Notes under the pieces: model-generated | The model's input: only the letters and a program-made list of their open reading frames with translations | Database searches by the model: none | Told to the model about the DNA's origin: nothing | Position numbers and translations under genes: made by a program | Shown here: one piece after another, positions 2,962 to 45,196 of the stretch | How positions within the stretch are numbered: the stretch's first letter is position 1 | Layout of the letters: the number at the start of each line of letters is the position of its first letter | Source: a virus | DNA: 64,000 nt | Direction: 5' to 3' (one strand) | IMG/VR virus record: IMGVR_UViG_3300009545_000003 | Location: 1-64,000 of that record

Positions 2962-2991
2962 ATTATATATTAAACTTGTATCGGTTGTAAA
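2962..2991 (-). promoter_or_regulatory. Early promoter P2 (CCGATA class)
   Basis: The minus-strand -35 TTTACA (2991-2986), an 18-bp spacer containing ACCGATA, and -10 TATAAT (2967-2962) match the architecture of P1 and P3. The leader to the gene at 2942 is very short. The iteron array begins about 50 bp upstream of the -35. Confidence 0.7.
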
Positions 2992-3043
2992 CTACTTTTT
3001 ATCTGCACAGTCAAAATCGGTAATGGTGACACGGGTAACATTT

Positions 3044-3230
3044 TACGTGCCTAGGTACATGCCTGATCAGGTACGTCCCTGAGTGTACATGCCTGAAGGT
3101 ACGTGCCTGAGTGTACATGCCTGAAGGTACGTGCCTGAGTAAGGTACATACCTGAGCGCGCCCGGGTAGGTACGTGCCTGAGGGTACGTGCCTCTGAGCG
3201 TCGTCGTCGTATACTGGCACGTACACGCCT
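3044..3230. repeat. Iteron-like array of GGTACRTGCCTGA
   Basis: About eleven copies of a 12-13 bp unit close to GGTACRTGCCTGA are packed head to tail (units begin near 3044, 3054, 3070, 3085, 3098, 3113, 3126, 3143, 3169, 3183 and 3221). Spacing is mainly 13-15 bp, and a 28-bp pair (3085-3110, 3113-3138) is repeated exactly. Copies with A and G at the variable position alternate. There are no spacers of CRISPR type. The array lies between divergent transcription units with an AT-rich stretch beside it (3240-3360), the usual look of a replication-origin iteron set or multi-site operator. An open frame over it on the minus strand is repeat-driven and not called. Confidence 0.75.
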
Positions 3231-3296
3231 AAGCGCATATACCTAAAGAAAAACGGCATTATTTTTGCATTTAAACTGTGTGAATGTAATTTGTTA

Positions 3297-3369
3297 TCAA
3301 AATGTTACTGTGATAAGCAAGTTTAATCGTATCAATAACTTACAAAACGACAAGGTAACATTATGTTAC
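3297..3369. promoter_or_regulatory. GTAACAT operator cluster
   Basis: TCAAAATGTTACTGTGAT at 3297-3314 is identical over 18 bp to two copies in front of the LuxR-type gene (7275-7292 and 7304-7321). At 3355-3369 is the perfect dyad GTAACAT-T-ATGTTAC. Single GTAACAT half-sites also occur at 3035-3041 and 4040-4046. These sites flank both sides of the divergent control region and are best read as binding sites for one phage regulator. Confidence 0.6.
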
Positions 3370-3740
3370 TTTGGTGTTACCGTGTTCTAAATAATACCGC
3401 GAGTCTTATCCCTGTTGCTTTTTGCAATAAAATACAGTCGAAAATGCCCTATTGTACCTGTACGCGCGCGTAGGTGAAAGGTGATCATTTGAGGATGAGA
3501 TGGATTTGTGCAATACGGCTTCTACGGGTTTTAATCAAACTATGATAAGATGTAAATAGAATGATAGACAGGCCTAGGGGAAACCGGATCTGTTTTCAAG
3601 GAAAAATGGATTTTGGGTTGCCGTCGGACGCACAGCTTTCGGCAAACCAGTTTGACTTCGTTGTGGATTTGAAGTCATCCTTTGAGTGATCCAGCACTAT
3701 AACTGGAGCCCAATCCACACTCCACTCGAGAAGGGTCTTA
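3370..3740. other. Intergenic control region, no convincing gene
   Basis: This AT-rich stretch between the operators and the first rightward gene holds no strong coding frame. One 27-codon frame (ATG at 3606, stop 3687-3689) has AAGGA 3 nt before its start and is only weakly supported. A palindromic run GTACCTGTACGCGCGCG lies near 3454-3470. Rightward promoters for the gene at 3741 must lie here, but I could not pick a clear -35/-10 pair. Confidence 0.5.
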
Positions 3741-4016
3741 ATGGACTGTTGTCTACTTTCACAAGAGGAAGTCGGTCGATTAGAGCACTATAACCTATTG
3801 CCTAATCATGAAGAACATACACACATTCCAGCAGCTGAAGCAATTGCCGGTCTCAAGGATGACTCACTGCTGTTGATCACCAGCCGAACTGGTCGCAACT
3901 ACGTTACACTTCCAAAGTTACACTTTCTTCGTGCACTTCCATCCGGACCATCTCAAATAAAGGTCATCCAACGAGTTGTGAGCAACCACATAAGTGAGCT
4001 TAAGCCCCTGCGCTAG
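3741..4016 (+). CDS. Unknown protein (91 aa), first rightward gene
   Basis: This reads as a soluble protein with a helical N-terminus (LSQEEVGRLEHYNLL) and a central beta-like segment (DSLLLITSRTGRNYVTLPKLHFL). No family recognised. It is the first gene to the right of the iteron/operator region and is separated from the next gene by a 140-bp operator-bearing gap, so it is probably transcribed alone. The start is taken as the first ATG, and the ribosome site (AGAAGGG) is acceptable. Confidence 0.6.
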   Translation: MDCCLLSQEEVGRLEHYNLLPNHEEHTHIPAAEAIAGLKDDSLLLITSRTGRNYVTLPKLHFLRALPSGPSQIKVIQRVVSNHISELKPLR

Positions 4017-4039: not shown

Positions 4040-4094
4040 GTAACATATGGGTATACATCATAAAAATGCAGTGTATACCGCTTATCACAATAAG
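4040..4094. promoter_or_regulatory. Operator half-site plus two inverted repeats
   Basis: The segment before the gene at 4160 contains GTAACAT (4040-4046), an 8-bp inverted repeat GGTATACA (4050-4057) / TGTATACC (4072-4079) separated by 14 nt, and a tight CTTAT-CACA-ATAAG dyad (4081-4094). CGCGGTAAC occurs twice (about 4036 and 4134). No U-run follows, so these look like protein-binding dyads rather than terminators. Confidence 0.45.
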
Positions 4095-4159: not shown

Positions 4160-4522
4160 GTGGCCAACTTTTATCATAAAGATGATCCAGATCTCATCAC
4201 TAAGAAAGTCGGCGCGAAGCTTTTGAGTGAGGGGTACCGTAGCTGGCTAGGACGAATGGTGCCAGAAGACATTAGAGAGCAATTCGGTCTACCTGAAGGT
4301 GCCACATGGGCTGATGCCATTGGCCTTCAAACAGTGAAAAGAGCTCTCGCACTTATCGGTAAAGAGCAAGTTTGTTTTTCCGCAATTACTGAACTCAGAG
4401 AGAGCACGGAAGGTAAGACTCCTGAAAGAGTCATGGTAGCTCAGAACACGGAGTTAATGGCTCTTGCGGCAGCAATTAATCAGCCACCCGCACCTGAGCC
4501 TGGAGAAGAAAATGAGTCATGA
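4160..4522 (+). CDS. Unknown protein; possible terminase small subunit
   Basis: The GTG start at 4160 has GAGGAG 5 nt upstream. The protein has 120 residues. Its middle, with ALALIGKEQVCFSAITELRESTEGKTPERV, resembles the helix and 'E-x-T-E-G-K-P' segment seen in many small terminase subunits and related phage DNA-binding proteins, but no clear N-terminal HTH is visible. It also lies 4.3 kb from the large subunit, with a minus-strand block in between. The terminase role is therefore only a suggestion. The end overlaps the following membrane-protein gene by 11 nt. Confidence 0.5.
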   Translation: MANFYHKDDPDLITKKVGAKLLSEGYRSWLGRMVPEDIREQFGLPEGATWADAIGLQTVKRALALIGKEQVCFSAITELRESTEGKTPERVMVAQNTELMALAAAINQPPAPEPGEENES

Positions 4523-4676
4523 ACTTAGTCAACTAAGCGTCATCATCTCTCTTATCGGTTTTATCATCTACATCTTTACCCATGAAGATCGGCCAAGGTA
4601 CGTCGAGATTGGTAGGTTGATGTTCGCTATCGGTTTGCTAGCCTTTCTGATTCATTACAGCCCGAAGCTGTTTTGA
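4512..4676 (+). CDS. Small two-helix membrane protein
   Basis: The best start is ATG 4512, with GGAG 6 nt upstream, giving 54 residues. An in-frame upstream ATG (4464) has no ribosome site. Two hydrophobic segments are obvious: LSVIISLIGFIIYIF and IGRLMFAIGLLAFLI, joined by a charged loop (THEDRPRYVE). It overlaps the preceding gene by 11 nt. Small two-TM phage proteins include holins and host-membrane modulators, but the location away from the lysis genes argues for an early role. Confidence 0.7.
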   Translation: MSHELSQLSVIISLIGFIIYIFTHEDRPRYVEIGRLMFAIGLLAFLIHYSPKLF

Positions 4677-4847
4677 AAGCGCCGTCAACTGTTCAGCGGA
4701 CTCTTCAAGCCGGGTGCACTGTCTTACAATCGAGGTGCACGAAAGCTCTGGGGTGAAGATAGTGAGAAAGTTAACTGAACGTCGGAGATCATCGAAGTAC
4801 CTAAGAATCTCATCGACACGACATTTATACTCTGAGCGAGTGATCAT
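4638..4847 (-). CDS. Unknown helical protein (69 aa)
   Basis: This is the last gene of a leftward cluster. It is predicted helical with heptad-like spacing (EYKCRVDEILRYFDDLRRSV, RLEESAEQLTALSKQLRAVM), so a small coiled coil is likely. Its 3' end overlaps the convergent membrane-protein gene by 39 nt. Its start overlaps the stop of the upstream zinc-ribbon gene as ATGA. No function assigned. Confidence 0.6.
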   Translation of the reverse strand: MITRSEYKCRVDEILRYFDDLRRSVNFLTIFTPELSCTSIVRQCTRLEESAEQLTALSKQLRAVMNQKG

Positions 4848-4963
4848 TTCTTCGCCGCTTTCTTAAAGCAAGGCGGACAAACATACTTGTTCCGAATGGT
4901 GCGACGAAACGGCTTACCGCAAACGGAACAAGAACCATTTCGGTTGAAGAGTGGTTGATTCAT
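4844..4963 (-). CDS. Zinc-ribbon microprotein (39 aa)
   Basis: The ATG at 4963 and stop at 4844-4846 both form ATGA overlaps with the neighbouring genes, strong evidence for a translated gene. The protein contains CSVCGKPF and, 13 residues on, CPPC, a classic CxxC-x~13-CxxC treble-clef or ribbon knuckle, with a lysine-rich tail. It resembles standalone zinc fingers used by phages to bind host proteins or nucleic acid. Confidence 0.7.
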   Translation of the reverse strand: MNQPLFNRNGSCSVCGKPFRRTIRNKYVCPPCFKKAAKK

Positions 4964-5235
4964 CTGATTCCACACTCCTCATCGGCTAACGTTCTGAGAA
5001 TGAGCTTCAACTGATGACCGACTGCGTCGATCAGCTGTTCTGGACTATTCCCACTGATGACGGTCAAGCTGTCAATTCCTGAAACCGTCCAATGGTTGAA
5101 CTGTAACTCGACTTCAATGCCATCAAAATAGCGGTTGAACCACAGCCAAGGGTTGTTCTCATTCTTAGCTGGCTCTTCGAAGCCAAGAGCAAGAAGCACG
5201 ACTTCCAAACGATTGGTTGGTTTACCGCTGCTCAT
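4960..5235 (-). CDS. Unknown protein (91 aa)
   Basis: A soluble protein with aromatic-rich centre (NPWLWFNRYFDGIEVELQFNHWTVSGI) and a helical C-terminus (SPEQLIDAVGHQLKLILRTL). No family recognised. It overlaps its upstream neighbour by 14 nt and its downstream zinc-ribbon gene by ATGA, so it belongs to the leftward operon. Confidence 0.7.
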   Translation of the reverse strand: MSSGKPTNRLEVVLLALGFEEPAKNENNPWLWFNRYFDGIEVELQFNHWTVSGIDSLTVISGNSPEQLIDAVGHQLKLILRTLADEECGIR

Positions 5236-5455
5236 GTTTCACCTCCAATGAATCGAGCATCTCAGTAACTCGTTCGACGTGAGTTAGTTCTTTTACATAT
5301 GGAGCGCCATAGTACTTAGGCACAGTGAGAGGTGCTTCGACTGGCCTAGGCTTCGGCCAGTTGCTGATGTAAAAGTCGGCTGCTTTATTAACGCCGAACT
5401 CGAGAGCACGACCTAAGAGATAGCCGATCGCGCCGATAACAGCATCGTGGTTCAT
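5222..5455 (-). CDS. Unknown protein (77 aa)
   Basis: The N-terminus (AVIGAIGYLLGRALEFGVNKAADFYI) is amphipathic and weakly hydrophobic; the rest is proline-rich then charged. A peripheral membrane association is possible but not shown. The start overlaps the upstream gene by 4 nt and the end overlaps the downstream gene by 14 nt. Confidence 0.65.
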   Translation of the reverse strand: MNHDAVIGAIGYLLGRALEFGVNKAADFYISNWPKPRPVEAPLTVPKYYGAPYVKELTHVERVTEMLDSLEVKHEQR

Positions 5456-5595
5456 GCCTCACCTCTAGTGAGATGCCAATGAATTACGAGCCAGTCAGCG
5501 AATTCAATTTTATGTCCATGCTGCAGACACCAGGTCGAGAAAAAACCGAAGTTTTGTCGAGCAGCATACGTAAACGATGAACTTAACTGTTTCAT
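5452..5595 (-). CDS. Unknown small protein (47 aa)
   Basis: I place the start at ATG 5595, which has GGAG about 6 nt upstream. The longer frame to 5655 would run back through the terminator hairpin at 5642-5661. The protein is rich in aromatic residues and histidine (FGFFSTWCLQHGHKIEFADWLVIHWHL). No family recognised. Confidence 0.6.
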   Translation of the reverse strand: MKQLSSSFTYAARQNFGFFSTWCLQHGHKIEFADWLVIHWHLTRGEA

Positions 5596-5633
5596 AGATT
5601 CTCCTTTCCTAATGCCTAACCATCGATTAGACA

Positions 5634-5661
5634 TAAGGAAAGGGAGGACTTTCATCCTCCC
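5634..5661 (-). terminator. Terminator after winged-helix gene 1
   Basis: On the minus strand GGGAGGA-TGAAAG-TCCTCCC (5661-5642) is a perfect 7-bp hairpin followed by TTTCCTT. It lies immediately after the stop of the gene at 5668-6051, so it probably ends or attenuates that transcript before the smaller downstream genes. Confidence 0.6.
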
Positions 5662-5667
5662 AACCAG

Positions 5668-6051
5668 TTACGCTGCTACTGTGGATTCAGGCTGCTTGGC
5701 CGGCGCTTCAACTTCGATCGTTGGGTTGACGACCTTTGCGACGCCGAGCTTGCTGAGGTGATGAAGGTGCCACATGCAAGAGAGTTTCACTCCAGCATTA
5801 GCAGTGAGACCCGCAGTCGTCGCGAACTTCGTGATTTCGTCGATTGTGAATTCGCGATTCGGATCCTGTGCAAGAGCAGCGATCACGATCTGACGCTGTT
5901 TGCCACGAGGAGCGATTGCCGGAGCGGCGATCAACTGGTAGCGACGTTCGGCTGGCGGAGTGTTCTTCGTCGTCTTCTCAACGGCGGTTGTGGTTGTCTG
6001 AGCGGCTACGCTCTCATTTGCCTTCACTTCAGTGTTTTTGCTGTTCTTCAT
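5668..6051 (-). CDS. Phage winged-helix-like protein, paralogue 1
   Basis: The protein has 127 residues. After a low-complexity T/A/K-rich N-terminus, residues about 37-110 contain GKQRQIVIAALAQ, an EFTIDEITKF helix and SCMWHLHHLSKLGVAKV. The layout of GKQRQ, a putative HTH and a W-H-L-x-Q/H-L-x-x-L-G-x-V wing is shared with the genes at 6829-7128 and 44768-45196, so the three are paralogues. The fold looks like a winged helix, suggesting DNA binding. The gene has its own promoter (6102-6162) and terminator, pointing to abundant expression. A nucleoid-associated or regulatory role is inference. Confidence 0.7.
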   Translation of the reverse strand: MKNSKNTEVKANESVAAQTTTTAVEKTTKNTPPAERRYQLIAAPAIAPRGKQRQIVIAALAQDPNREFTIDEITKFATTAGLTANAGVKLSCMWHLHHLSKLGVAKVVNPTIEVEAPAKQPESTVAA

Positions 6052-6101
6052 GGTGTTCTCCTTGTGTTTCAGAATAACAAGTAATTTGCTATTCTGATCT
6101 A

Positions 6102-6162
6102 ATTATAAATCAACTTTTCTGAGAAGTACACAACTTAATACGTGTACCTCTCAAATTGTCAA
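6102..6162 (-). promoter_or_regulatory. Promoter region of winged-helix gene 1
   Basis: Two overlapping minus-strand candidates lie here. One is TTGACA (6162-6157), a 16-bp spacer and TATTAA (6140-6135). The other is TGTACT (6130-6125), 17 bp and TATAAT (6107-6102). Both read into the gene starting at 6051. TTGACA is the best -35 match to sigma-70 found in the intergenic regions. Confidence 0.55.
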
Positions 6163-6172
6163 ACTTTGGTAA

Positions 6173-6394
6173 TCAGCCGTTCAACTTGCCCAAGCGTACC
6201 CAGTTAGCGATGCGAGTCAACATCGTCATCTCATCGACGTCGAACTGATATGAGCGGGTTTCAACAAATTCACCAGCTTCAAAAAACTCAACGCTGTAGC
6301 CCTGAGGATCAGGCATGCGTTTGCCGTCACCAAAGCGGTGCATCTCCGTACTCACACGTACGGTGTAGAGTACTTTTCGCAATTCGTTTGCCAT
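6173..6394 (-). CDS. Unknown protein (73 aa)
   Basis: The start at ATG 6394 is preferred: it sits behind AAGGAGAATGAA in a leader module that is duplicated upstream at 6757-6831, whereas the longer frame reads through that module's hairpin. The protein is beta-like and acidic in its second half (YSVEFFEAGEFVETRSYQF, DVDEMTMLTRIANWVRLGKL). No family recognised. Confidence 0.7.
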   Translation of the reverse strand: MANELRKVLYTVRVSTEMHRFGDGKRMPDPQGYSVEFFEAGEFVETRSYQFDVDEMTMLTRIANWVRLGKLNG

Positions 6395-6458
6395 TTCATT
6401 CTCCTTGGCGTAGTGAGCGCCCTCCAGAGTCAAGCGGCTCTGAAGGCCGATCAAGCTA
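6391..6458 (-). promoter_or_regulatory. Duplicated leader module, copy 2 (hairpin plus SD)
   Basis: Read on the minus strand this segment is TAG-CTTGATC, a 9-bp hairpin (CCTTCAGAG ... CTCTGGAGG, 8-nt loop), GCTCACTAC, then AAGGAGAATGAAATGGCA. The same order and the same flanking words occur in copy 1 at 6757-6831 although the stem sequences differ. It separates the tiny membrane gene at 6456-6569 from the gene at 6394. Confidence 0.6.
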
Positions 6459-6569
6459 GGCTCCACCTTTACCAACATAGCGGGGCATGTCTGGCTCCCA
6501 CAGGCTGAAGTGTTGATGGTCAAATACGACGTAGAGGAAGATGCAGATCACTCTCCACAGCATGATCAT
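6456..6569 (-). CDS. Tiny membrane-like protein (37 aa)
   Basis: ATG 6569 overlaps the stop of the previous gene as ATGA and has GGAGG 5 nt upstream; the stop is TAG at 6456-6458, which is also the first codon of leader module copy 2. The N-terminus MIMLWRVICIFLYVVF is a short hydrophobic segment, followed by a polar tail. It is the third of three consecutive short genes that each have a strong ribosome site. Confidence 0.6.
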   Translation of the reverse strand: MIMLWRVICIFLYVVFDHQHFSLWEPDMPRYVGKGGA

Positions 6570-6673
6570 CTGCGCCTCCGTGGCTTGCTACTGAACAGGC
6601 TCACCGCGATGTAGATCACAAAGGGCAGCATCAGCCACCAGATCGATGGGTGCAGCGTGAAGGTAATGCTCAT
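6566..6673 (-). CDS. Tiny membrane protein (35 aa)
   Basis: ATG 6673 overlaps the preceding stop as ATGA, with GGAGG 5 nt before it. The protein has a single hydrophobic stretch (IWWLMLPFVIYIAVSLF) and a basic end (KPRRRR), the positive-inside pattern of a one-pass peptide with the C-terminus in the cytoplasm. Function unknown. Confidence 0.65.
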   Translation of the reverse strand: MSITFTLHPSIWWLMLPFVIYIAVSLFSSKPRRRR

Positions 6674-6762
6674 TTCGTCCTCCGGGGCATGAAGGTGTAG
6701 AGAGCGATTAGGGTAATGGTGCTCAACGTCAGCGGAACTCCAATTGCGATCACGTATGCCAT
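6670..6762 (-). CDS. Tiny membrane protein (30 aa)
   Basis: ATG 6762 follows AAGGAGAATGAA in leader module copy 1. The peptide is almost entirely one transmembrane segment (YVIAIGVPLTLSTITLIALYTFM) ending in PRRTK. It begins a run of three coupled genes of 30-37 codons. Candidates include membrane-targeting host-takeover peptides, but nothing here fixes a function. Confidence 0.65.
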   Translation of the reverse strand: MAYVIAIGVPLTLSTITLIALYTFMPRRTK

Positions 6763-6831
6763 TTCATTCTCCTTGTCGAGCTGTAGTGAGCTCTCTCCAA
6801 AGCCATTCGGCTCTGGAGAGAGATCAAGCTA
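6757..6831 (-). promoter_or_regulatory. Duplicated leader module, copy 1 (hairpin plus SD)
   Basis: On the minus strand this reads TAG-CTTGATC, then a 14-bp hairpin (6822-6791, CTCTCTCCAGAGCC / GGCTTTGGAGAGAG with a 4-nt loop), GCTCACTAC, and AAGGAGAATGAAATGGCA. TAG is the stop codon of winged-helix gene 2. Copy 2 at 6391-6458 keeps the flanking words but has a different stem that still pairs, implying the structure itself is selected. Confidence 0.65.
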
Positions 6832-7128
6832 CTTACTCTCTACGAAGCCGAGCAGCTCGAGCTGGTGGAGGTGCCAGCCGGTGGACTCTGCTACGGTGTA
6901 CTTGCTCTTGTACTTGTCCCCTATGATCTCTGCTACAGCCTCTCTGGAGAGGAACTCCTCTGGCTTGCTGCGGAGGGCGTCGGCTGTTGCTTGACGCTGC
7001 TTGCCCTTGAAGCTGAGTGGGCAGGTGGGAAGGATCTTGTAGCTCTTCAGCTTAGCAGGAACCTTCGTGGTCTTGACGATGGTAGCGGTTACGATGGTAC
7101 CGTCTGCGAGTTGAACTTGAGTGGTCAT
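6829..7128 (-). CDS. Phage winged-helix-like protein, paralogue 2
   Basis: The protein has 99 residues. Residues about 38-95 hold GKQRQATADALRSK, a helix pair EFLSREAVAEII and TGWHLHQLELLGFVE. This matches the paralogues at 5668-6051 and 44768-45196. The N-terminus (VQLADGTIVTATIVKTTKVP) is beta-like and differs from paralogue 1. The gene is first in its leftward transcript, behind the promoter at 7174-7202 and opposite the LuxR-type regulator gene. A DNA-binding role is inferred from the fold pattern only. Confidence 0.7.
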   Translation of the reverse strand: MTTQVQLADGTIVTATIVKTTKVPAKLKSYKILPTCPLSFKGKQRQATADALRSKPEEFLSREAVAEIIGDKYKSKYTVAESTGWHLHQLELLGFVESK

Positions 7129-7202: not shown

Positions 7203-7274
7203 CCCAAAGTGGGTTAGCCGTCCGCCTGGTTTTCGAATGCCAAAGTATAGTATTTAAAAGTTGTGATAATACCT

Positions 7275-7321
7275 TCAAAATGTTACTGTGATAAACAAAT
7301 TCTTCAAAATGTTACTGTGAT
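7275..7321. promoter_or_regulatory. Two operator copies before the LuxR-type gene
   Basis: TCAAAATGTTACTGTGAT occurs at 7275-7292 and 7304-7321, 29 bp apart, and once more at 3297-3314. The second copy ends 6 nt before the regulator's ATG and occupies the place where a ribosome site would normally be, so regulator binding would directly block its own expression. A related ATGTTAC dyad is at 3355-3369. Confidence 0.65.
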
Positions 7322-7327
7322 GGTCGT

Positions 7328-7534
7328 ATGACAAAACGCGAAGCCCAAATCTCTCGTCACATTCTTCTTGGCTGGCCGTATTCGAGAATAGCTAAAGAAT
7401 TTGAGTTAAATCTTCCAACAGTCAAAAAACACGTCAGTAACATCTACAACAAAGTAGGTTGTTCCACACATGTCGAATTTGTTAGTATGGTTCTCAATAG
7501 TGCTGACTTCTTAAACCAAATCTACGGAGTCTGA
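7328..7534 (+). CDS. Stand-alone LuxR/GerE-type HTH regulator
   Basis: The protein has 68 residues and consists almost only of a LuxR-type (GerE) helix-turn-helix: EAQISRHILLGWPYSRIA, then KEFELNLPTVKKHVSNIYNKVG. The K-x-H-V-x-x-I-Y-x-K-V-G recognition-helix signature is clear. There is no sensing or receiver domain, as in Bacillus GerE. It sits divergent from winged-helix gene 2, with two copies of an 18-bp repeat immediately upstream, so autoregulation is likely. The third repeat copy near 3.3 kb suggests it also controls the divergent early region. No Shine-Dalgarno sequence is evident. Confidence 0.85.
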   Translation: MTKREAQISRHILLGWPYSRIAKEFELNLPTVKKHVSNIYNKVGCSTHVEFVSMVLNSADFLNQIYGV

Positions 7535-7535
7535 A

Positions 7536-7796
7536 ATGGTTCCATCTGGACCTTGCCACTGTGGTAACGTAGCTTTTTACTATGCTGGTGGACAGCTATT
7601 CTGTGAGGAGCATAAGGCTGAAGCTGTTGATATCGTTCGAGCTGAGTATAAGACGACGGTGGCCGGCGAGCAGATGGTGAAGGTTCGACACAGGTTTAGG
7701 TTCAGTGAGGATGAGATAAGTCCGATTAGACTATCTTATTGGGGTGGTAGTCGTGTTCATAATAGGTATATAGACCGGCCCACCTACAATATCTAA
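7536..7796 (+). CDS. Unknown protein with CxC/CxxH zinc motif
   Basis: The protein has 86 residues and directly follows the regulator gene. The N-terminal CHCGNVAFYY ... FCEEH (CxC-x~16-CxxH) looks like a small zinc-binding knuckle. The rest is basic and beta-like (KVRHRFRFSEDEISP). It is probably co-transcribed with the HTH gene, from which it is separated by 1 nt. Function unknown. Confidence 0.7.
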   Translation: MVPSGPCHCGNVAFYYAGGQLFCEEHKAEAVDIVRAEYKTTVAGEQMVKVRHRFRFSEDEISPIRLSYWGGSRVHNRYIDRPTYNI

Positions 7797-7803
7797 ATTT
7801 TTC

Positions 7804-7913
7804 GGGGCCACTGGCTCCTTCTAAGCTGTGACCGGGCATTAGACCTCCTGCTGCGGTCGCGGAGCGCGAGGTGCTGCGCTAAGCCGGGTGGTGCCGCCGA
7901 TCACCGCCCGGCT
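7804..7913 (+). other. GC-rich hairpin cluster upstream of packaging genes
   Basis: This gene-free 110-bp segment is clearly more GC-rich than its surroundings. It contains GGGGCC-ACT-GGCTCC (7804-7818), an ACCTC (7843-7847) / GAGGT (7868-7872) pairing, and a 12-bp stem AGCCGGGTGGTG (7882-7893) / CACCGCCCGGCT (7902-7913) with an 8-nt loop. There is no U-run, so it is not a typical terminator. Possibilities are a structured RNA or a packaging (pac/cos) site, given the terminase 0.9 kb downstream. Confidence 0.5.
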
Positions 7914-7943
7914 CCAATTAATCGGCAACGACTGGAGGAACAA

Positions 7944-8156
7944 GTGGATCACGATCACAATCCACAGCAGGTCGTTATTCATCAAGTTGATCCTGGTCAG
8001 TTTGCTGCTCTCCTTCATCTAGGGTACATGATCCTAGCAGCTATCACGAAAGCGCAGGGAACTGATACAACCAAAATTGTAGAACTAACGAGTAAGCTCA
8101 AAGCATCTGGTGATGCTCTGAAGTCGGTAGTGTCTGCTGCACAAAACCAACAGTGA
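7944..8156 (+). CDS. Small helical phage protein, tandem paralogue A
   Basis: The GTG start at 7944 follows GGAGG at 5-nt spacing. The protein has 70 residues and ends with LTSKLKASGDALKSVVSAAQ. The following gene has LAATLKTSGDALAALVVAN in the same place, so the two look like tandem paralogues. Similar short helical proteins are common just before terminase or head genes in environmental phages. Function unknown; no enzymatic motif. Confidence 0.7.
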   Translation: MDHDHNPQQVVIHQVDPGQFAALLHLGYMILAAITKAQGTDTTKIVELTSKLKASGDALKSVVSAAQNQQ

Positions 8157-8163
8157 GGAAACT

Positions 8164-8373
8164 ATGTCTGCTGAATTTGATGCACTGTCCGCACAGGTTG
8201 CGGAAAATACGAGCGAAGAAGCGTCGGCCGGTCAGCTGATCCAGAACATCGCTGCCCAGCTCGCCAACAACCCCACACCTGAGCAGGTTAAAGCTCTGGC
8301 TGCGACTCTCAAGACTTCCGGTGATGCACTGGCTGCCTTGGTAGTTGCGAACACCCCTGCAGCTCAGGCGTAA
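8164..8373 (+). CDS. Small helical phage protein, tandem paralogue B
   Basis: The protein has 69 residues and is alanine-rich with regular helices (MSAEFDALSAQVAENTSEEASA, LIQNIAAQLANN, VKALAATLKTSGDALAALV). It follows paralogue A after 7 nt and is followed by a strong terminator at 8409-8444. The composition suggests an abundant coiled-coil or virion-associated protein, but there is no direct evidence. Confidence 0.75.
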   Translation: MSAEFDALSAQVAENTSEEASAGQLIQNIAAQLANNPTPEQVKALAATLKTSGDALAALVVANTPAAQA

Positions 8374-8408
8374 TAAGCTCTCGCAACACGAGAGAACCAA
8401 GGCAACCT

Positions 8409-8444
8409 AGGGGAGATTTCGCAAGAAGTCTCCCCTGATTTTTT
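8409..8444 (+). terminator. Rho-independent terminator
   Basis: AGGGGAGA (8409-8416) pairs perfectly with TCTCCCCT (8429-8436) over a 12-nt loop, followed by GATTTTTT. It ends the transcript of the two small helical genes before the packaging module. Confidence 0.85.
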
Positions 8445-8468
8445 AAAAGGTATCCTAATGAAAGGAGG

Positions 8469-8744
8469 ATGAATCACGTGGATCGTGAGCCTAAGATTGG
8501 CGAAGCGGTCATATGGCATGAATCTGATGGAACTCCAGCTAATGCTCTTATCACAGCTGTCTGGGGACCAAAATGTATCAACGTTGTTATCGTTTCTGTA
8601 GACGTTAACAAACAAGATAACTATGGACGTCAGACTGAGCGTCGTACGAGTTGTTCTCATAAGACTCTTACAAACGTTCATGGCTTTTACTGGAGATTTC
8701 CAGAAGAAGAACCTAACCCATATGTCCCACCAACATCGATCTAA
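8469..8744 (+). CDS. Unknown protein upstream of terminase
   Basis: The protein has 91 residues and begins MNHVDREPKIGEAVIWHESDGTPANALITAVWG, typical of a small beta-barrel (SH3-like) protein. An NPYVPPTSI tail suggests a flexible C-terminus. GGAGG lies near 8464. It sits right before the large terminase, where a small terminase is often found, but no HTH is visible, so I do not assign that role. Confidence 0.7.
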   Translation: MNHVDREPKIGEAVIWHESDGTPANALITAVWGPKCINVVIVSVDVNKQDNYGRQTERRTSCSHKTLTNVHGFYWRFPEEEPNPYVPPTSI

Positions 8745-8798
8745 CTAACCTCCGTTGCCTAGGAATCCACGAGAAACCTTAAAAGCAACGGCAAGGAC

Positions 8799-10094
8799 GT
8801 GATTCTTCCTATGCCAGTATTCGCACAGTTCGGGGCAAAAGCTCATAAGTTCGTGTCGCGACACCCGAGTCAGGACAAGAAGTATACGCTTCTTGAGGGG
8901 AGTGTTCGTAGTGGGAAGACCTTTGCAATCGATGCAAAGATTGTACTCCATCTATGCCTCTATAAAGTCAACGGAAAAAGAGTTATTTGTGGAGCAACAA
9001 AACAATCTGTCTACAAGAACATACTCCTTGACTTATTCCAAGTTGTTGGCAAAAAGAACTATGCTTATAACCGAGCTACTGGCGAACTCGAACTCTTCGG
9101 AACTCAATGGTTTGTAATTGGTGCTAAGGATGAAGCTTCTTATAAGCAAATCCTTGGTATGACTATCGCTATCGCGATATGTGATGAGTGGACTGAGTTT
9201 CCACAAAGTTTCACCAAGCAGTTGTTTATGCGTCTTTCTCCTCCAGGATCGAGATTATACGCATCTACCAACCCAGGTACGCCTCAGCATTATCTTTTCA
9301 CCGATGTTATCAACAACGATAACTTTGATAGTGACTTAGAGGTTATTCACTTCACTCTGGATGATAACCCTAATCTGGACCCTGTTTCTAAGAGACAGAT
9401 TATCTCTTCTCAGAAGGGCGTTTACTACCAGAGATATATCCTTGGGCTATGGGTTGTGGCTGAAGGTGCTATCTACAAAGATAGTTGGCATGATAAGTTT
9501 CTTTATGATGACAGTACAAGGCCACCTACGTTGTACGCTTCAGGTGGATTCAGGCAGCACATCATCACCATCGACTATGGCACGCATAACCCTTGCGTCT
9601 TTTTAGAGTATTTCGATGACGGTGAAGTAAGTTGGTTGGATAGAGAGTACTACTGGGATTCTGTTAAGGAAATGAAACAGAAGACTGATAGGGAATATGC
9701 TGACGATCTCGAGAATTTTATTAAGAAGTCACGCCGTGTTGCTCCGTCGCGTCCAATCCTTGTCGTGGACCCCTCAGCAACCTCCTTCAAAGTCGAACTC
9801 ATCCAAAGAGGATTTATCGTTATTGACGCTGACAACGACGTTCTCGACGGAATCCATAGAGTCTCTGAAGTTGAGGCAACCGGAAATCGCAGAGTTCATA
9901 AGGATTGCACCCAGTTCAGACGTGAAAAAGGTCTTTACGCATGGGATGCTAAGGCTGCCGAAGACGGAACAGAAAGACCTCTCAAAGTAAATGACCACGC
10001 TATGGATGCTGATCGGTACGGACTCACGTATCTATATCCTGAGTGGAGAACTCTAAACATTCAGAAAGTAGCAGACATGAGAAAGGCAGCATAA
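8799..10094 (+). CDS. terL: Terminase large subunit
   Basis: The 431-residue packaging motor pumps DNA into the prohead and cuts concatemers. The ATPase domain has Walker A GSVRSGKT (residues 34-41) and Walker B IAICDE (D129, E130), followed by the STNPG coupling motif (156-160). The RNase H-like nuclease domain shows acidic clusters at ITIDYG (D259), LVVDPS (D324) and NDHAMDAD (399-404). The start is GTG 8799 or ATG 8811; AAGGA lies close to the GTG. It is followed 1 nt later by the portal gene, as expected for a packaging operon. Confidence 0.97.
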   Translation: MILPMPVFAQFGAKAHKFVSRHPSQDKKYTLLEGSVRSGKTFAIDAKIVLHLCLYKVNGKRVICGATKQSVYKNILLDLFQVVGKKNYAYNRATGELELFGTQWFVIGAKDEASYKQILGMTIAIAICDEWTEFPQSFTKQLFMRLSPPGSRLYASTNPGTPQHYLFTDVINNDNFDSDLEVIHFTLDDNPNLDPVSKRQIISSQKGVYYQRYILGLWVVAEGAIYKDSWHDKFLYDDSTRPPTLYASGGFRQHIITIDYGTHNPCVFLEYFDDGEVSWLDREYYWDSVKEMKQKTDREYADDLENFIKKSRRVAPSRPILVVDPSATSFKVELIQRGFIVIDADNDVLDGIHRVSEVEATGNRRVHKDCTQFRREKGLYAWDAKAAEDGTERPLKVNDHAMDADRYGLTYLYPEWRTLNIQKVADMRKAA

Positions 10095-10095
10095 G

Positions 10096-11808
10096 ATGCC
10101 AAGAGCTAGTAGGAAGAAGAAGACTGAGACTGTTGATAGTCTAGACGCAGCTCTAGACCTCAATATGCTCAGAAGCCTTCAGCCCGTGATGGCTGATAGC
10201 TATCAAAATGTTCCTGCTAGGATTGGAAATGGTACTCCTAATCTAGTAAACAGTGGAAACTATCCTTTAGTTCGTTTGACTGAGCAGTATCCTTTGATAC
10301 TGAGTCTATACAGAAGCTCATGGATTGTTCGTAAAATTATTGATCAAGTCGCAAATGACGTGTTCAAAGTTTTTCCTGTTCTAGATTTCGATGTTTCTCC
10401 TGAGCAAGTATCTGCTTTTCGCAACATGCTTCTGAAGACTAGAACTATTACCAGACTTCGGTCACTAGCTAAGTGGGGTAGATTGTTTGGTGGCGCTGGC
10501 GCCATCATGGTTTTAGACGGTCATGATGATCTTCGGAAGCCTCTTGACGTAGATGACGTTCAAGTCGGGGCTTACAAAGGCCTCATCGTTCTTGATAGGT
10601 GGTCAGGCATCATTCCGGGACCTGAGATCAATTCTGACATCAATGATCCTGAGTCTTTCGGACTTCCAACTTATTACAACTGCATCATGGATGCGGGTAA
10701 TGTTACGGTTCACCATTCTAGAGTTTTACGATTTACTGGAAGAGAACTTCCTCAATGGGAAGTTCAGGTTGAACTGTACTGGGGCATGTCAGAAGTAGAA
10801 GTAATATTCGATGAGCTGAAGAAGAGAGATTACAGTTCATGGAATATCGTATCATTATTGACGCGCGCCCAGGTAATGGCTTTGTCAGAACCTCAATTAG
10901 CCACCATGATGTCTGGTGCAGGAACATCTAATGATGCGTTTAACATGTTTGTTAACCGTATGGAGATGATTTCTCAGCAACTGAACAACAACGGACTTTT
11001 GATTCTCGGTAAGGACGGAAAGCTCGAAAATAAGAGCTACGGATTTGGTGGAGTTTCTGACGTCTACCGAGAGTTCATGAAGGATCTTGCGGCGGCAACG
11101 GGCATACCCTATGAGGTAATCTTTGGCCGAAACCAGGGTATGGGCGGCGAGATGGGGAACAACGGAGGCGCTTCTCTTCAGTTATACGATAACATGATTG
11201 AAGAGAAAAGAATTTCAGAAGCCAATCCAGTCATAGATAAGTTGCTTCCAGTAATGTGTATGTCTATCTTCGGGAAAGTTCCTGAAGATTTAGTGTATCA
11301 TTGGACTCCAATAAGGGCTCTTACTGAAAAGGAGCGTTATGATCTTGCGAAATCGGCTGTTGAGTCTGTACTCATGGCTTACAACGCTGATCTCCTCACT
11401 AAGAAAGAGGCCCGTACTGAGCTTGCTACTGGCTCTGGTACTCATGGATTGTTTAATCTTCCACAGGAAGCTGTCGCTGCTACACCCGACCTATATGCTT
11501 CAGAGGCTATGCTTGGCGCTCAATTTGATCCTGATGGCAACGATGAAGATACAGTAGGTGGAGTATCAGTGGGTGAAGATCCTCCTGATGGCACTCCTGG
11601 AGCTCGTTCAGGTGAGCAAGTTCCCGTCGAAGCCAAACCTGTTGGAGTTAAAGGTCTAATCTGGCACAAGAGCCGTAGATTGACTGAAGGACCTGGTGGA
11701 GCTGCTTCTAAAGGAAGTGCTGGAACTAACTCATCAAGCACTACTAAATCTCTTCACCAATCCATGCAGCACTCTGTTAAACATGAGACAAAGAAACCAA
11801 AAAGATAG
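10096..11808 (+). CDS. Portal protein (DUF1073 family)
   Basis: The protein has 570 residues. The N-terminal half carries the DUF1073-type portal pattern: YPLILSLYRSSWIVRKIIDQVANDV, then AKWGRLFGGAGAIMVLDG, and later GIPYEVIFGRNQGMGGEMGNNGG, which is highly characteristic. A dodecamer of this protein forms the DNA entry vertex and docks terminase. The C-terminal 90 residues are disordered and G/S-rich (LTEGPGGAASKGSAGTNSSS). It directly follows the terminase and is followed by head-completion genes. Database labels for this family sometimes mention an anti-CBASS enzyme; nothing here supports that. Confidence 0.93.
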   Translation: MPRASRKKKTETVDSLDAALDLNMLRSLQPVMADSYQNVPARIGNGTPNLVNSGNYPLVRLTEQYPLILSLYRSSWIVRKIIDQVANDVFKVFPVLDFDVSPEQVSAFRNMLLKTRTITRLRSLAKWGRLFGGAGAIMVLDGHDDLRKPLDVDDVQVGAYKGLIVLDRWSGIIPGPEINSDINDPESFGLPTYYNCIMDAGNVTVHHSRVLRFTGRELPQWEVQVELYWGMSEVEVIFDELKKRDYSSWNIVSLLTRAQVMALSEPQLATMMSGAGTSNDAFNMFVNRMEMISQQLNNNGLLILGKDGKLENKSYGFGGVSDVYREFMKDLAAATGIPYEVIFGRNQGMGGEMGNNGGASLQLYDNMIEEKRISEANPVIDKLLPVMCMSIFGKVPEDLVYHWTPIRALTEKERYDLAKSAVESVLMAYNADLLTKKEARTELATGSGTHGLFNLPQEAVAATPDLYASEAMLGAQFDPDGNDEDTVGGVSVGEDPPDGTPGARSGEQVPVEAKPVGVKGLIWHKSRRLTEGPGGAASKGSAGTNSSSTTKSLHQSMQHSVKHETKKPKR

Positions 11809-33300: not shown

Positions 33301-34926
33301 TACGCTGCGTCTACAAATACAGCCGATGCCTACTCAGTAACTTTGTCACCAACTATTGCTACTTATGCTGATGGCTTAACCGTGCGGTTTCTCCCATCTG
33401 CAAGTAATACCACGACCACACCCACCATAAACGTCAATGGCATTGGTGCTAGCACCGTAACTCTCATGAGTGGCAGTGCCGTTGCCGCTGGTGATCTATC
33501 AACATCCGCAGTTGCCTCTGTAGTGAGAAAAGGAACTACTTGGCAGTTGCAAAATCCTCAGGTCAGTAGTGGCGGTGGTGGGTCTGGAACAGCCGTAAAT
33601 CACAACGGTGGCTCGACTGAAGCAACGCTCAATATTAGTGGTATGGATGTGCAGGTTTGCTCAGACTCCAGCGGCAGCGGAACGGCTCAGTCTTGCAACA
33701 CTTCGAACGTATACACTTTGGCGTCGGGTAATTGCTTCGTATACAAGACGACGACAACGAACAGCGGCACAGGTCTCACGATCAACCCGAACGGGTCTGG
33801 TGCAAAGCCCGTGGCGGTACCGGGGTCGTCTGGTTGGACTACCACTCTTACAGCGTCGTTGATTCCAACAGGAAAGCCGTTGCTGACTTGTTATGACGGC
33901 ACCAATTTGAACATTCAGCAAACTGGTGTCACCACCGCGTCAACGGCAGGCACCGTTCCTTTCGGTACAGATACTAGTGGATCAACCACTACTTATGTCA
34001 TACCTTCCACTTCTCCCACGGTAACTTCGTTGACGAGTGGGCTCACCATTCTGGCAAGATTTGGGGGCAGAAACACTAGCTCTACTCCAACTCTTAATTT
34101 GAATGGTCTTGGTGCGAAAACGATTGTTAAGGGATCTGGTTCTAATACCAGACCGCTCGCTGGTGCCGATATCAACACCGGCACCACGTATCTTCTTTCT
34201 TACGATGCAGGCAGCACGACGTGGCTGCTGATGAACCCGAACACTGCCTCCCTCATTTACAACGACATCACGAACAGTTCGTTCCTTAGTGCTGGAGTGA
34301 GTACGGTATGCGGCTCGACCACGATCTTCAGTCCGTCTGCGAGTTGCTTCAATCAAGACGATGTGTCCGGTGTATTCGCACTCGGTAACGCTGGCGGCGG
34401 TCTCAATGTCGTGCATGGATATCAGGCTATGCGCAACAGTAACGGCTCCGCGCTTCAAACCGTAGCGTATGGTGCTTTTGCGGGCCTCAACAACAACTCC
34501 AATAACTCTGGTTACTTTGGAATCTCGGCTGGCTCTAACTCTGTTACGCAGTCGAACCAGTGGATGTGGGGCAATGGTGTAACGGACAACTGCTCAAATT
34601 GTCAGGATTTCGGCAACTCGGCGATCACGATTACCAAGATGGCAGGAACTGATGCGAAGCCGACTCAAACGGCGATTGCTTCTGCTACGACGATTGCCCC
34701 AACTTCGCCCGTCTTCCATGTGACCGGCACGGCGACAGTTAGCACGATCACGCCACCAACCGGGTGCACCGCAGCCGGTTGGTCCTGCAAGATCATGATC
34801 ATTCCCGATGGCGCATTCCTTACCGCGACAGGCGGGAACATAGCGTTAGCTACGACCGCCGTCGTGAATCGAGTGTTGGAGATGATCTATGATCCCGGAA
34901 CAAGCCTTTGGTACCCGAGTTACTAG
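30301..34926 (+). CDS. Giant mosaic receptor-binding/fibre protein with signal-peptide-like start
   Basis: The protein has 1541 residues and starts with TTG after AAGGAG. Residues 1-19 look like a Sec signal peptide (KKISLLLLLMFTISLSAQ), which is odd for a virion protein. Next is a base-attachment-like motif (ELPAAGSTNWNLPLNYNFNLLDQLL). The region about 160-680 contains GDSTSIG, a carbohydrate-binding-like stretch and SSPHFNVAGN, weakly recalling SGNH hydrolases. Two fibre repeats (about 1005-1090 and 1230-1310, both with L-N-x-N-G-x-G-A) follow, and a repeat-rich tip (GYQAMRNSN, GAFAGLN) closes. Base composition switches several times along the gene, suggesting recombination. Confidence 0.8.
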   Translation: MKKISLLLLLMFTISLSAQTITTPNVGLELPAAGSTNWNLPLNYNFNLLDQLLGGLKTSGLKLAYQPILSLGSPSAICNANNKGQMDFDTTTSPWTQYACDGISSWHAVGGSGGGGGGATFPTLPGIVWNTTTLASRNAVFGDIVGLWGSCTGYLKSDGTCSIPSPGTSGTVTPDSKYNRGNGMYLVGDSTSIGGVITLSGAPVNGTGSFDCPGPANANWGQTSLRLDVTPYQYFNCDKTTSTWKEGTPLNSTVEMIFANFNQQSTQPLSTGDYPYPGTRYSNSGGIPNSGNAACLDVYNTQLYAWEDPADNRQNTYFLNCGIGDWLNWAHSIGWGTIADGPSTIVGTIRAAVSYAGTPRSGRIPAQSTSSVTTSGTWTNFDPTNSSTTVSGTWASGAASGSITTPGSIAHYWRVSDTTNPNSIPSGTYVTVITGSAVTLSASTTAAITGDTLLFWNPSIAPFRAGYAKCGTSGAVMEFTTMPASGALDFTYLIDGTPGTATANISIDGVAAGSVSSGDGGAFSTVHYAQAWWAKRFLLVGTAQHKFDVTVTSGSFCPIEVTTPKPIGWDGMSQPKVVQSIMPPAGDGYNGLDNLISEAQVSIINELKGDGYNISAADLWGGWPESKGNLTPGFGFPFCVHHACVYKNGIDGVYESSPHFNVAGNTLNAYTNLQAADRIPNPAPNLLPGTSGLLTVDKTQSAAITDVDATKVDVLTNSNTHSTGPQNVLTGGYLKVGERYYAVGNPNSNIITNSGTFTGGSAAISVTAGRSLIVIMDNASVATLSGGEATINKTLGTGGGFTVSGTAIKNVVGGTETLTISPAASTTTWIEFSNLNQTTPFEASTAFGVLPQFIIFQKQTENMLITAPGDLLISFSTQGCTNLSNATSTPPWTAPDGMTTFVPSAGSLTGMRVWTGVTPPLGSVNYTLTPGRHCTSIDNGDRYYGLFAVRPSFAANQSAHVTEWVDENGVLQSWVDRAGAPGGNLAAGGTPTASQISGAQYAASTNTADAYSVTLSPTIATYADGLTVRFLPSASNTTTTPTINVNGIGASTVTLMSGSAVAAGDLSTSAVASVVRKGTTWQLQNPQVSSGGGGSGTAVNHNGGSTEATLNISGMDVQVCSDSSGSGTAQSCNTSNVYTLASGNCFVYKTTTTNSGTGLTINPNGSGAKPVAVPGSSGWTTTLTASLIPTGKPLLTCYDGTNLNIQQTGVTTASTAGTVPFGTDTSGSTTTYVIPSTSPTVTSLTSGLTILARFGGRNTSSTPTLNLNGLGAKTIVKGSGSNTRPLAGADINTGTTYLLSYDAGSTTWLLMNPNTASLIYNDITNSSFLSAGVSTVCGSTTIFSPSASCFNQDDVSGVFALGNAGGGLNVVHGYQAMRNSNGSALQTVAYGAFAGLNNNSNNSGYFGISAGSNSVTQSNQWMWGNGVTDNCSNCQDFGNSAITITKMAGTDAKPTQTAIASATTIAPTSPVFHVTGTATVSTITPPTGCTAAGWSCKIMIIPDGAFLTATGGNIALATTAVVNRVLEMIYDPGTSLWYPSY

Positions 34927-44767: not shown

Positions 44768-45196
44768 TTAAGCAGCTGCAACAACTGAGGAAGCAGGAAC
44801 TTCGGTAGCTGCTGGAGCCGGCGTAACATGCTCATCGACAATCTTGAGCGTCTTCATCTGCTTGAGGTGCCACTCTGTAGAAGCCTCAACCGGATGCTTC
44901 GACTGAAGACCTTCAACATTCTTTGCGATCTCAGCTACGCTGAAGAATTTGTCTTCACCCTGTGCAGCAGCGAGTTTCTGCATTGACTTCACAACCGCTG
45001 CGCGTTGTCCAGAAAACTTGCTCACGTCAACACCTTGCAGAAGACGATAGCTCGCAGAACCCTTAGCCACGCGGGGCTTCTTTTCTTTCGCAGGAGCATC
45101 TACCGAAGTAGTTGCTGTCTGAGCTGCCTTCGGCGCTTCTGCCGCTACCTTGTCGCCAGTCTTCTGCTTGCCCTTGACTTCAGTCTCGTTTGCCAT
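44768..45196 (-). CDS. Phage winged-helix-like protein, paralogue 3
   Basis: The protein has 142 residues with a low-complexity A/K/T N-terminus and tail. The centre, KGSASYRLLQGV, SGQRAAVVKSMQKL, KFFSVAEIAKNVE, and TEWHLKQMKTLKIVDE, aligns with the paralogues at 5668-6051 and 6829-7128, including the G-x-Q-R box and W-H-L-x-Q wing. GGAG lies about 11 nt upstream of the ATG, farther than usual. It is coupled by position to the gene at 45218, which ends in a similar wing-like segment. Confidence 0.7.
   Translation of the reverse strand: MANETEVKGKQKTGDKVAAEAPKAAQTATTSVDAPAKEKKPRVAKGSASYRLLQGVDVSKFSGQRAAVVKSMQKLAAAQGEDKFFSVAEIAKNVEGLQSKHPVEASTEWHLKQMKTLKIVDEHVTPAPAATEVPASSVVAAA

Follow-up and report, generated by a model that had tools for sequence, protein, structure and literature searches.

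The closest described counterparts of the protein studied here are stand-alone proteins of the GerE type, exemplified by GerE itself (74-residue chain 1fse, which we take to be the whole GerE protein from Bacillus subtilis), in which a single GerE helix-turn-helix domain occurs with neither a receiver nor a ligand domain. The same domain forms the C-terminus of NarL/FixJ-type response regulators such as VraR, NarL and FixJ. Clusters of short sites in a non-coding stretch flanking divergent gene blocks are, for their part, a feature of lambda-type multi-site operator/origin regions. LuxR-family proteins encoded on phages are described for the Aeromonas phages ARM81ld and Apop where, according to the accessible portions of the two reports, they possess an acyl-homoserine-lactone domain at the N-terminus and work together with XRE at a smORF promoter (PMC6456758, PMC10432266), and where XRE, a factor other than LuxR, activates the xre-luxR operon (PMC10432266). 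The accessible portions of the literature on phages and GTAACAT/ATGTTAC, or on LuxR-family activators of late phage genes, gave no description of the element reported below.

The window, as we call the whole stretch of DNA analysed here, comprises the first 64,000 nucleotides of the 69,567-base IMG/VR virus record IMGVR_UViG_3300009545_000003, and the phages of this group are unclassified tailed phages. Its LuxR-type protein resembles GerE in being a single GerE helix-turn-helix domain (profile match E 1.4e-5); unlike GerE, it is phage-encoded, has 68 residues and is encoded before small phage genes, terL and the portal gene. In contrast to VraR, NarL and FixJ it has no receiver domain and no phosphorylation input, and whereas it shares with ARM81ld and Apop the presence of a LuxR-family protein on a phage, it consists of the DNA-binding domain only. 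The cluster of short sites in the window resembles lambda-type regions in its place in a non-coding stretch flanking divergent blocks, but differs from them in its word, its variable spacing and the lack of a recognised repressor or initiator.

A stand-alone LuxR-type gene and its neighbours

An earlier note on this DNA had described a small stand-alone LuxR-type regulator whose gene is not preceded by a Shine-Dalgarno sequence, and both points hold. The 68-aa protein matches PF00196 with 32.9 bits against a curated cut-off of 23.5, over profile positions 4-57 of 57 and from residue 2 onwards, and thus contains the whole GerE/LuxR DNA-binding domain; a Pfam profile search found no second domain above its cut-off. 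No Shine-Dalgarno sequence is visible upstream of the ATG at 7328. Solved relatives of the protein are VraR, GerE and NarL. We rejected its assignment as a LuxR-type quorum-sensing receptor, for it has no N-terminal autoinducer-binding domain, and as a NarL/FixJ response regulator, for it has no N-terminal receiver domain.

The gene is the first of the rightward late-gene strand and diverges from the leftward gene F2 (Table 1); on the same strand follow a terL-like gene (8799-10094, from tblastn to annotated terminases) and the portal gene (10096-11808, PF06381). A search of 7500-9200, the region ahead of and into the terL-like gene, yielded no sigma-70-like promoter, and the terminator-like hairpin within it (8408-8444) is absent from the relative L004. 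Relatives with a LuxR protein include L004 (part of the 67.8-kb record G001), L005 and L006, with 63%, 63% and 48% identity to that of the window, respectively, all three genes lying upstream of terL; L045 encodes a more distant GerE protein, also upstream of its terL. The earlier note considers LuxR-type proteins that lack a sensor domain uncommon in phages; among 21 records of this group, GerE matches were found in 5 at E 0.01 and in 4 above the cut-off. L006 has a tandem pair of GerE-type genes before terL (L006:136-606; two GerE matches in G017). Window positions 1-25000 have no near DNA relatives among deposited phages, and scans of genome contigs with F0 and LuxR alignments yielded no host or prophage relatives.

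Three neighbouring genes recur below. F0 gave no convincing family or fold match and no usable PDB match. F1 is a probable small terminase subunit, as judged from its position and from the DUF5681 match of a relative, DUF5681 being presumably a mark of such proteins. F2 has a paralogue at 5668-6051 and, by alignment, probably another at 44768-45196; the former was modelled as three helices followed by two strands, a winged-helix-like order. Comparison of the modelled structure with the PDB gave nothing at E<=0.001, and F2 thus counts as no more than a candidate DNA binder.

Between the terS-like gene and terL, the window has a leftward block (4638-7128). Since the two genes stand close together in L035, L041 and L033, the block looks inserted, and its arrival would have divided what had been a single rightward unit. 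A 79-kb contig (G007, comprising L025 and L027) has an F0/terL set near each end, the two sets being different, and represents either two phages joined or a duplication.

Table 1. Positions of the sites, genes and signals discussed (window coordinates)
Feature	Position	Strand	Comment
Leftward promoter-like TTTACA-18-TATAAT	2962..2991	-	11/12, also in L004; regional promoter-like match counts at chance level
ATGTTAC core site	3035..3041	-	left edge of cluster; two such sites here in L004
Iteron-like block	3055..3240	+	12-nt GTACRTGCCTGA repeats, mostly 14 nt apart, between ATGTTAC sites
Third 18-mer	3297..3314	+	within cluster of putative control region; counterparts ATGTTACTGTATG in L004, ATGTTACGTTTG in luxR-less L008
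Dyad GTAACATTATGTTAC (3355-3369, perfect, 15 bp) and TGTTAC at 3375	3355..3380	.	kept in L004
F0, conserved 91-aa protein	3741..4016	+	downstream of cluster; 15 homologues aligned
ATGTTAC core site	4040..4046	-	between 91-aa gene and terS-like gene; kept in L004
F1, probable small terminase subunit	4160..4522	+	position; one DUF5681 match in a relative
F2, winged-helix-like small protein	6829..7128	-	divergent from luxR; candidate binder
Extended -10-like TGTGATAAT	7262..7270	+	matching element before both L004 copies
18-mer, upstream copy	7275..7292	+	positional match L004:7088, before extra 63-aa ORF missing from window
18-mer, copy adjoining luxR	7304..7321	+	positional match L004:7296-7313, there overlapping ATG
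luxR-type gene	7328..7534	+	68 aa, GerE HTH alone, no sensor domain
Terminator-like hairpin and T run	8408..8437	+	strong, z -4.68; between luxR group of small genes and terL

The 18-mer and the predicted luxR promoter

The earlier note had reported an 18-mer twice within 6-53 nt before luxR and once at 3297-3314, with GTAACAT at 3035 and 4040 and a perfect dyad at 3355-3369, and we recovered every one of these sites. The 18-mer TCAAAATGTTACTGTGAT is exact in its three copies, all on the + strand (3 copies where 0.06 would be expected, counting matches with up to 3 mismatches), and a search of the complete 69,567-base record gave no further copy. The luxR ATG lies 53 nt after the start of the first luxR-side copy and 6 nt after the end of the second, and an additional GTAACAT stands inside luxR at 7437. 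GTAACAT occurs 18 times in the window as compared to 6.9 expected; three intergenic stretches, 1,140 bp in all, contain 8 of the 45 occurrences of TGTTAC, where 0.62 are expected (P ~3e-7, the stretches having been picked after the sites were seen).

On the luxR side the element is shared with relatives. The luxR start codon carries a copy in L004 (18/18) and L005 (17/18), and in both a second copy (17/18) precedes an extra ORF for a 63-aa Cys/His-rich protein. The two copies before the window luxR are only 29 bp apart; since the window agrees at 7275 with what lies upstream of the first L004 copy and at 7304 with what lies downstream of the second, this tandem is best read, and most simply, as the product of a deletion that would have removed the small gene separating the copies in L004 and L005. 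The full 18-mer (up to 3 mismatches) is confined to the luxR-bearing window, L004 and L005, apart from one 3-mismatch match without the core in L086. Sequence identity alone is no argument here, because exact runs of at least 18 are not rare in coding DNA (11 in ~2.7 kb of the two phages compared). The argument for the luxR-side element lies in its conservation while the remaining intergenic DNA hardly aligns, together with the restriction of the 19-mer CTTYAAAATGTTACTGTGA, in the viral contig collection, to only two contigs, both luxR-bearing relatives with two copies each, one of them on the luxR start.

A sigma-70 extended -10-like sequence (TGn followed by at least 5/6 of TATAAT) stands at a matching offset just upstream of w7275, L004:7088 and L004:7296, and likewise before both L005 copies; it is absent before w7304, w3297 and L004:3536. 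Such strings number 12 in total on the + strand of the 64 kb window. The predicted transcription start would fall at ~7277, inside the 18-mer, and because the extended -10 keeps its offset before three independent luxR-side copies, the 18-mer would cover the +1 position.

Two other readings of the upstream DNA were discarded. A word common to luxR promoters was not found, since the upstream regions of the window, L004, L006 and L045 luxR genes have no 6-mer in common and share 5-mers at chance level. An RNA leader structure is likewise rejected, with 7275-7335 folding no better than shuffles (z -0.50) and core sites present on both strands; Rfam gave no match near the gathering score.

ATGTTAC clusters with and without luxR

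Relatives were sought by the conserved 91-aa gene F0, and in 23 sequences the clustering of TGTTAC in 350-bp spans was compared with that in dinucleotide shuffles (200 or 1000 per sequence). The observed clustering was never reached by shuffles in 10 of the 23 (G000, G001, L005, G002, G011, L033, part of G015, L041, L035 and L127). L127 (0/1000) was left out since its sites recur as tandem-repeat units, leaving nine clusters; L128 (20/1000) was set aside with it as a like match, L029 (reached by 54/1000) was left out as marginal, and L034 was counted together with L035, being the same stretch. For eleven sequences from ten records, including the luxR-bearing fragments L045 and L006, the available portion showed no significant cluster. 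The control word CATTGT (the reversed word) reached a maximum of 3 in any of the 23 sequences.

The kept clusters divide into three with luxR (G000, G001, L005) and six in independent records in which no GerE match was found (G002, G011, L033 in G014, G015, L041 in G005, and L035 in G003); the LuxR profile likewise gave no match in G002 or G011. In the six, the core ATGTTAC occurs at 5-8 sites per 350 bp of a non-coding control region. Five of them are fragments of 6-36 kb, in which luxR could lie elsewhere, and only G011 (71,382 bases) is near full length. The core consensus is [A/G]ATGTTAC[C/A], in both orientations and with variable spacing (74 core sites in the matrix, with L005 left out and L127 included). 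F0 and F1 are present in 9 of the 9 regions compared; in L033 and G015 the cluster lies ~4.0-4.6 kb upstream of F0 rather than directly before it. In the window, the cluster occupies a long non-coding stretch between leftward genes and the rightward F0/terS unit. L004 and the luxR-less L008 both keep the surroundings of the 3297 site; in L008 its counterpart has neither the TCA nor the TGTGAT flank.

These distributions bear on the suggestion of the earlier note that the repeats form an operator family belonging to the regulator. That part stands which concerns the conserved repeats on the luxR promoter and the long form restricted to luxR-bearing phages; the wider GTAACAT/ATGTTAC family, however, occurs in six luxR-less records, and is thus not a site family found only with the regulator gene, as would be expected of an operator autoregulated by LuxR.

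Candidate readers of the sites

The reading that we prefer, with a probability of about 0.5, is that the ATGTTAC cluster is a group-wide, conserved multi-site control region bound by a putative factor other than LuxR, encoded by phage or host, and that luxR-bearing phages carry promoter-operator cassettes sharing its core before luxR. In the luxR branch, TCAAAATGTTACTGTGAT and the preceding extended -10 at the luxR start point would form a 33-bp cassette, and by occupying +1 the putative factor would repress luxR and its downstream genes, or set the time of their expression. Because relatives without luxR also carry the cluster of the core, the sites more probably act on luxR than belong to it, and LuxR as the sole owner of the GTAACAT family was rejected as the leading reading. 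The confinement of the full 18-mer to luxR-bearing phages is a counterpoint to this explanation, as it is what would be expected if LuxR reads the flanks. Further points against it are the fragmentary state of five of the six luxR-less records, the eleven sequences with no significant cluster, the distance between cluster and F0 in L033 and G015, the missing extended -10 before w7304, w3297 and L004:3536, and the lack of a clear fold match for the candidate binder F2. It is doubtful, at a further remove, that a single protein governs both the ATGTTAC region (possibly a replication origin) and the portable 33-bp cassette before luxR and its neighbour, which would couple late transcription to replication or packaging.

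The same restriction of the full 18-mer to the window, L004 and L005 keeps LuxR autoregulation through the long form the main rival, albeit a tentative one. Binding of the GerE protein to the full 18-mer (ATGTTAC core with TCA...TGTGAT flanks) at the luxR start and at 3297 would make it its own repressor and tie its operon to the control region; the GerE domain is a DNA-binding fold, the size of the site suits a GerE dimer, and in the window, L004 and L005 the long form stands on the luxR start. Against it stand a core family that is independent of luxR, the absence of a common 6-mer from the four luxR upstream regions, and L006, whose luxR has the same TVK+H stretch (presumably the recognition helix) and no such site in the visible 135 nt upstream. 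An unlikely alternative is that the cluster is a replication origin or packaging site, its ATGTTAC sites and iterons binding an initiator or the small terminase subunit and the luxR-side copies coupling late transcription to that protein. The iteron-like block, found between sites in the window and in diverged version in L004, and the nearby terS-like gene are consistent with it; the other relatives inspected showed no iterons, and no initiator gene was recognised. The detrended cumulative GC-skew minimum falls at 3018 in G000 and at 33688 in G001, within ~50 bp or less of the nearest cluster site, but at 5175 in G011, ~5 kb from the cluster, so that the region may be an origin; skew also follows gene direction. 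Very improbable, finally, is that the repeats are only promoter pieces, with TGTTAC read by RNA polymerase as an extended -10 (TGnTAnnnT) and no dedicated binder: TGTTACAAT in L034/L035 and TGTTACTAT in G002 fit such an element, but the T expected at the hexamer end is present in only 32 of the 74 core sites, the sites face either way and also form a perfect dyad, and a separate -10 already stands shortly before w7275 and before each luxR-side copy of L004.

If the sites are indeed a group-wide control region with luxR among its targets, a phage regulator gene may be drawn into an existing network of sites by acquiring a complete promoter-operator unit, and not by evolving a private operator family. 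The search for the binder is sharpened by nine related records that share this short core and include natural versions both with and without luxR, and the candidate winged-helix-like family F2 is present throughout these nine.

A small hairpin (TCCAG...CTGGA) at 3685-3715 lies in the leader of F0, and in the alignment its last stem pair varies in a compensatory manner, with CTCCGT/ACGGAG in L004 and CTCCAA/TTGGAG in L023.
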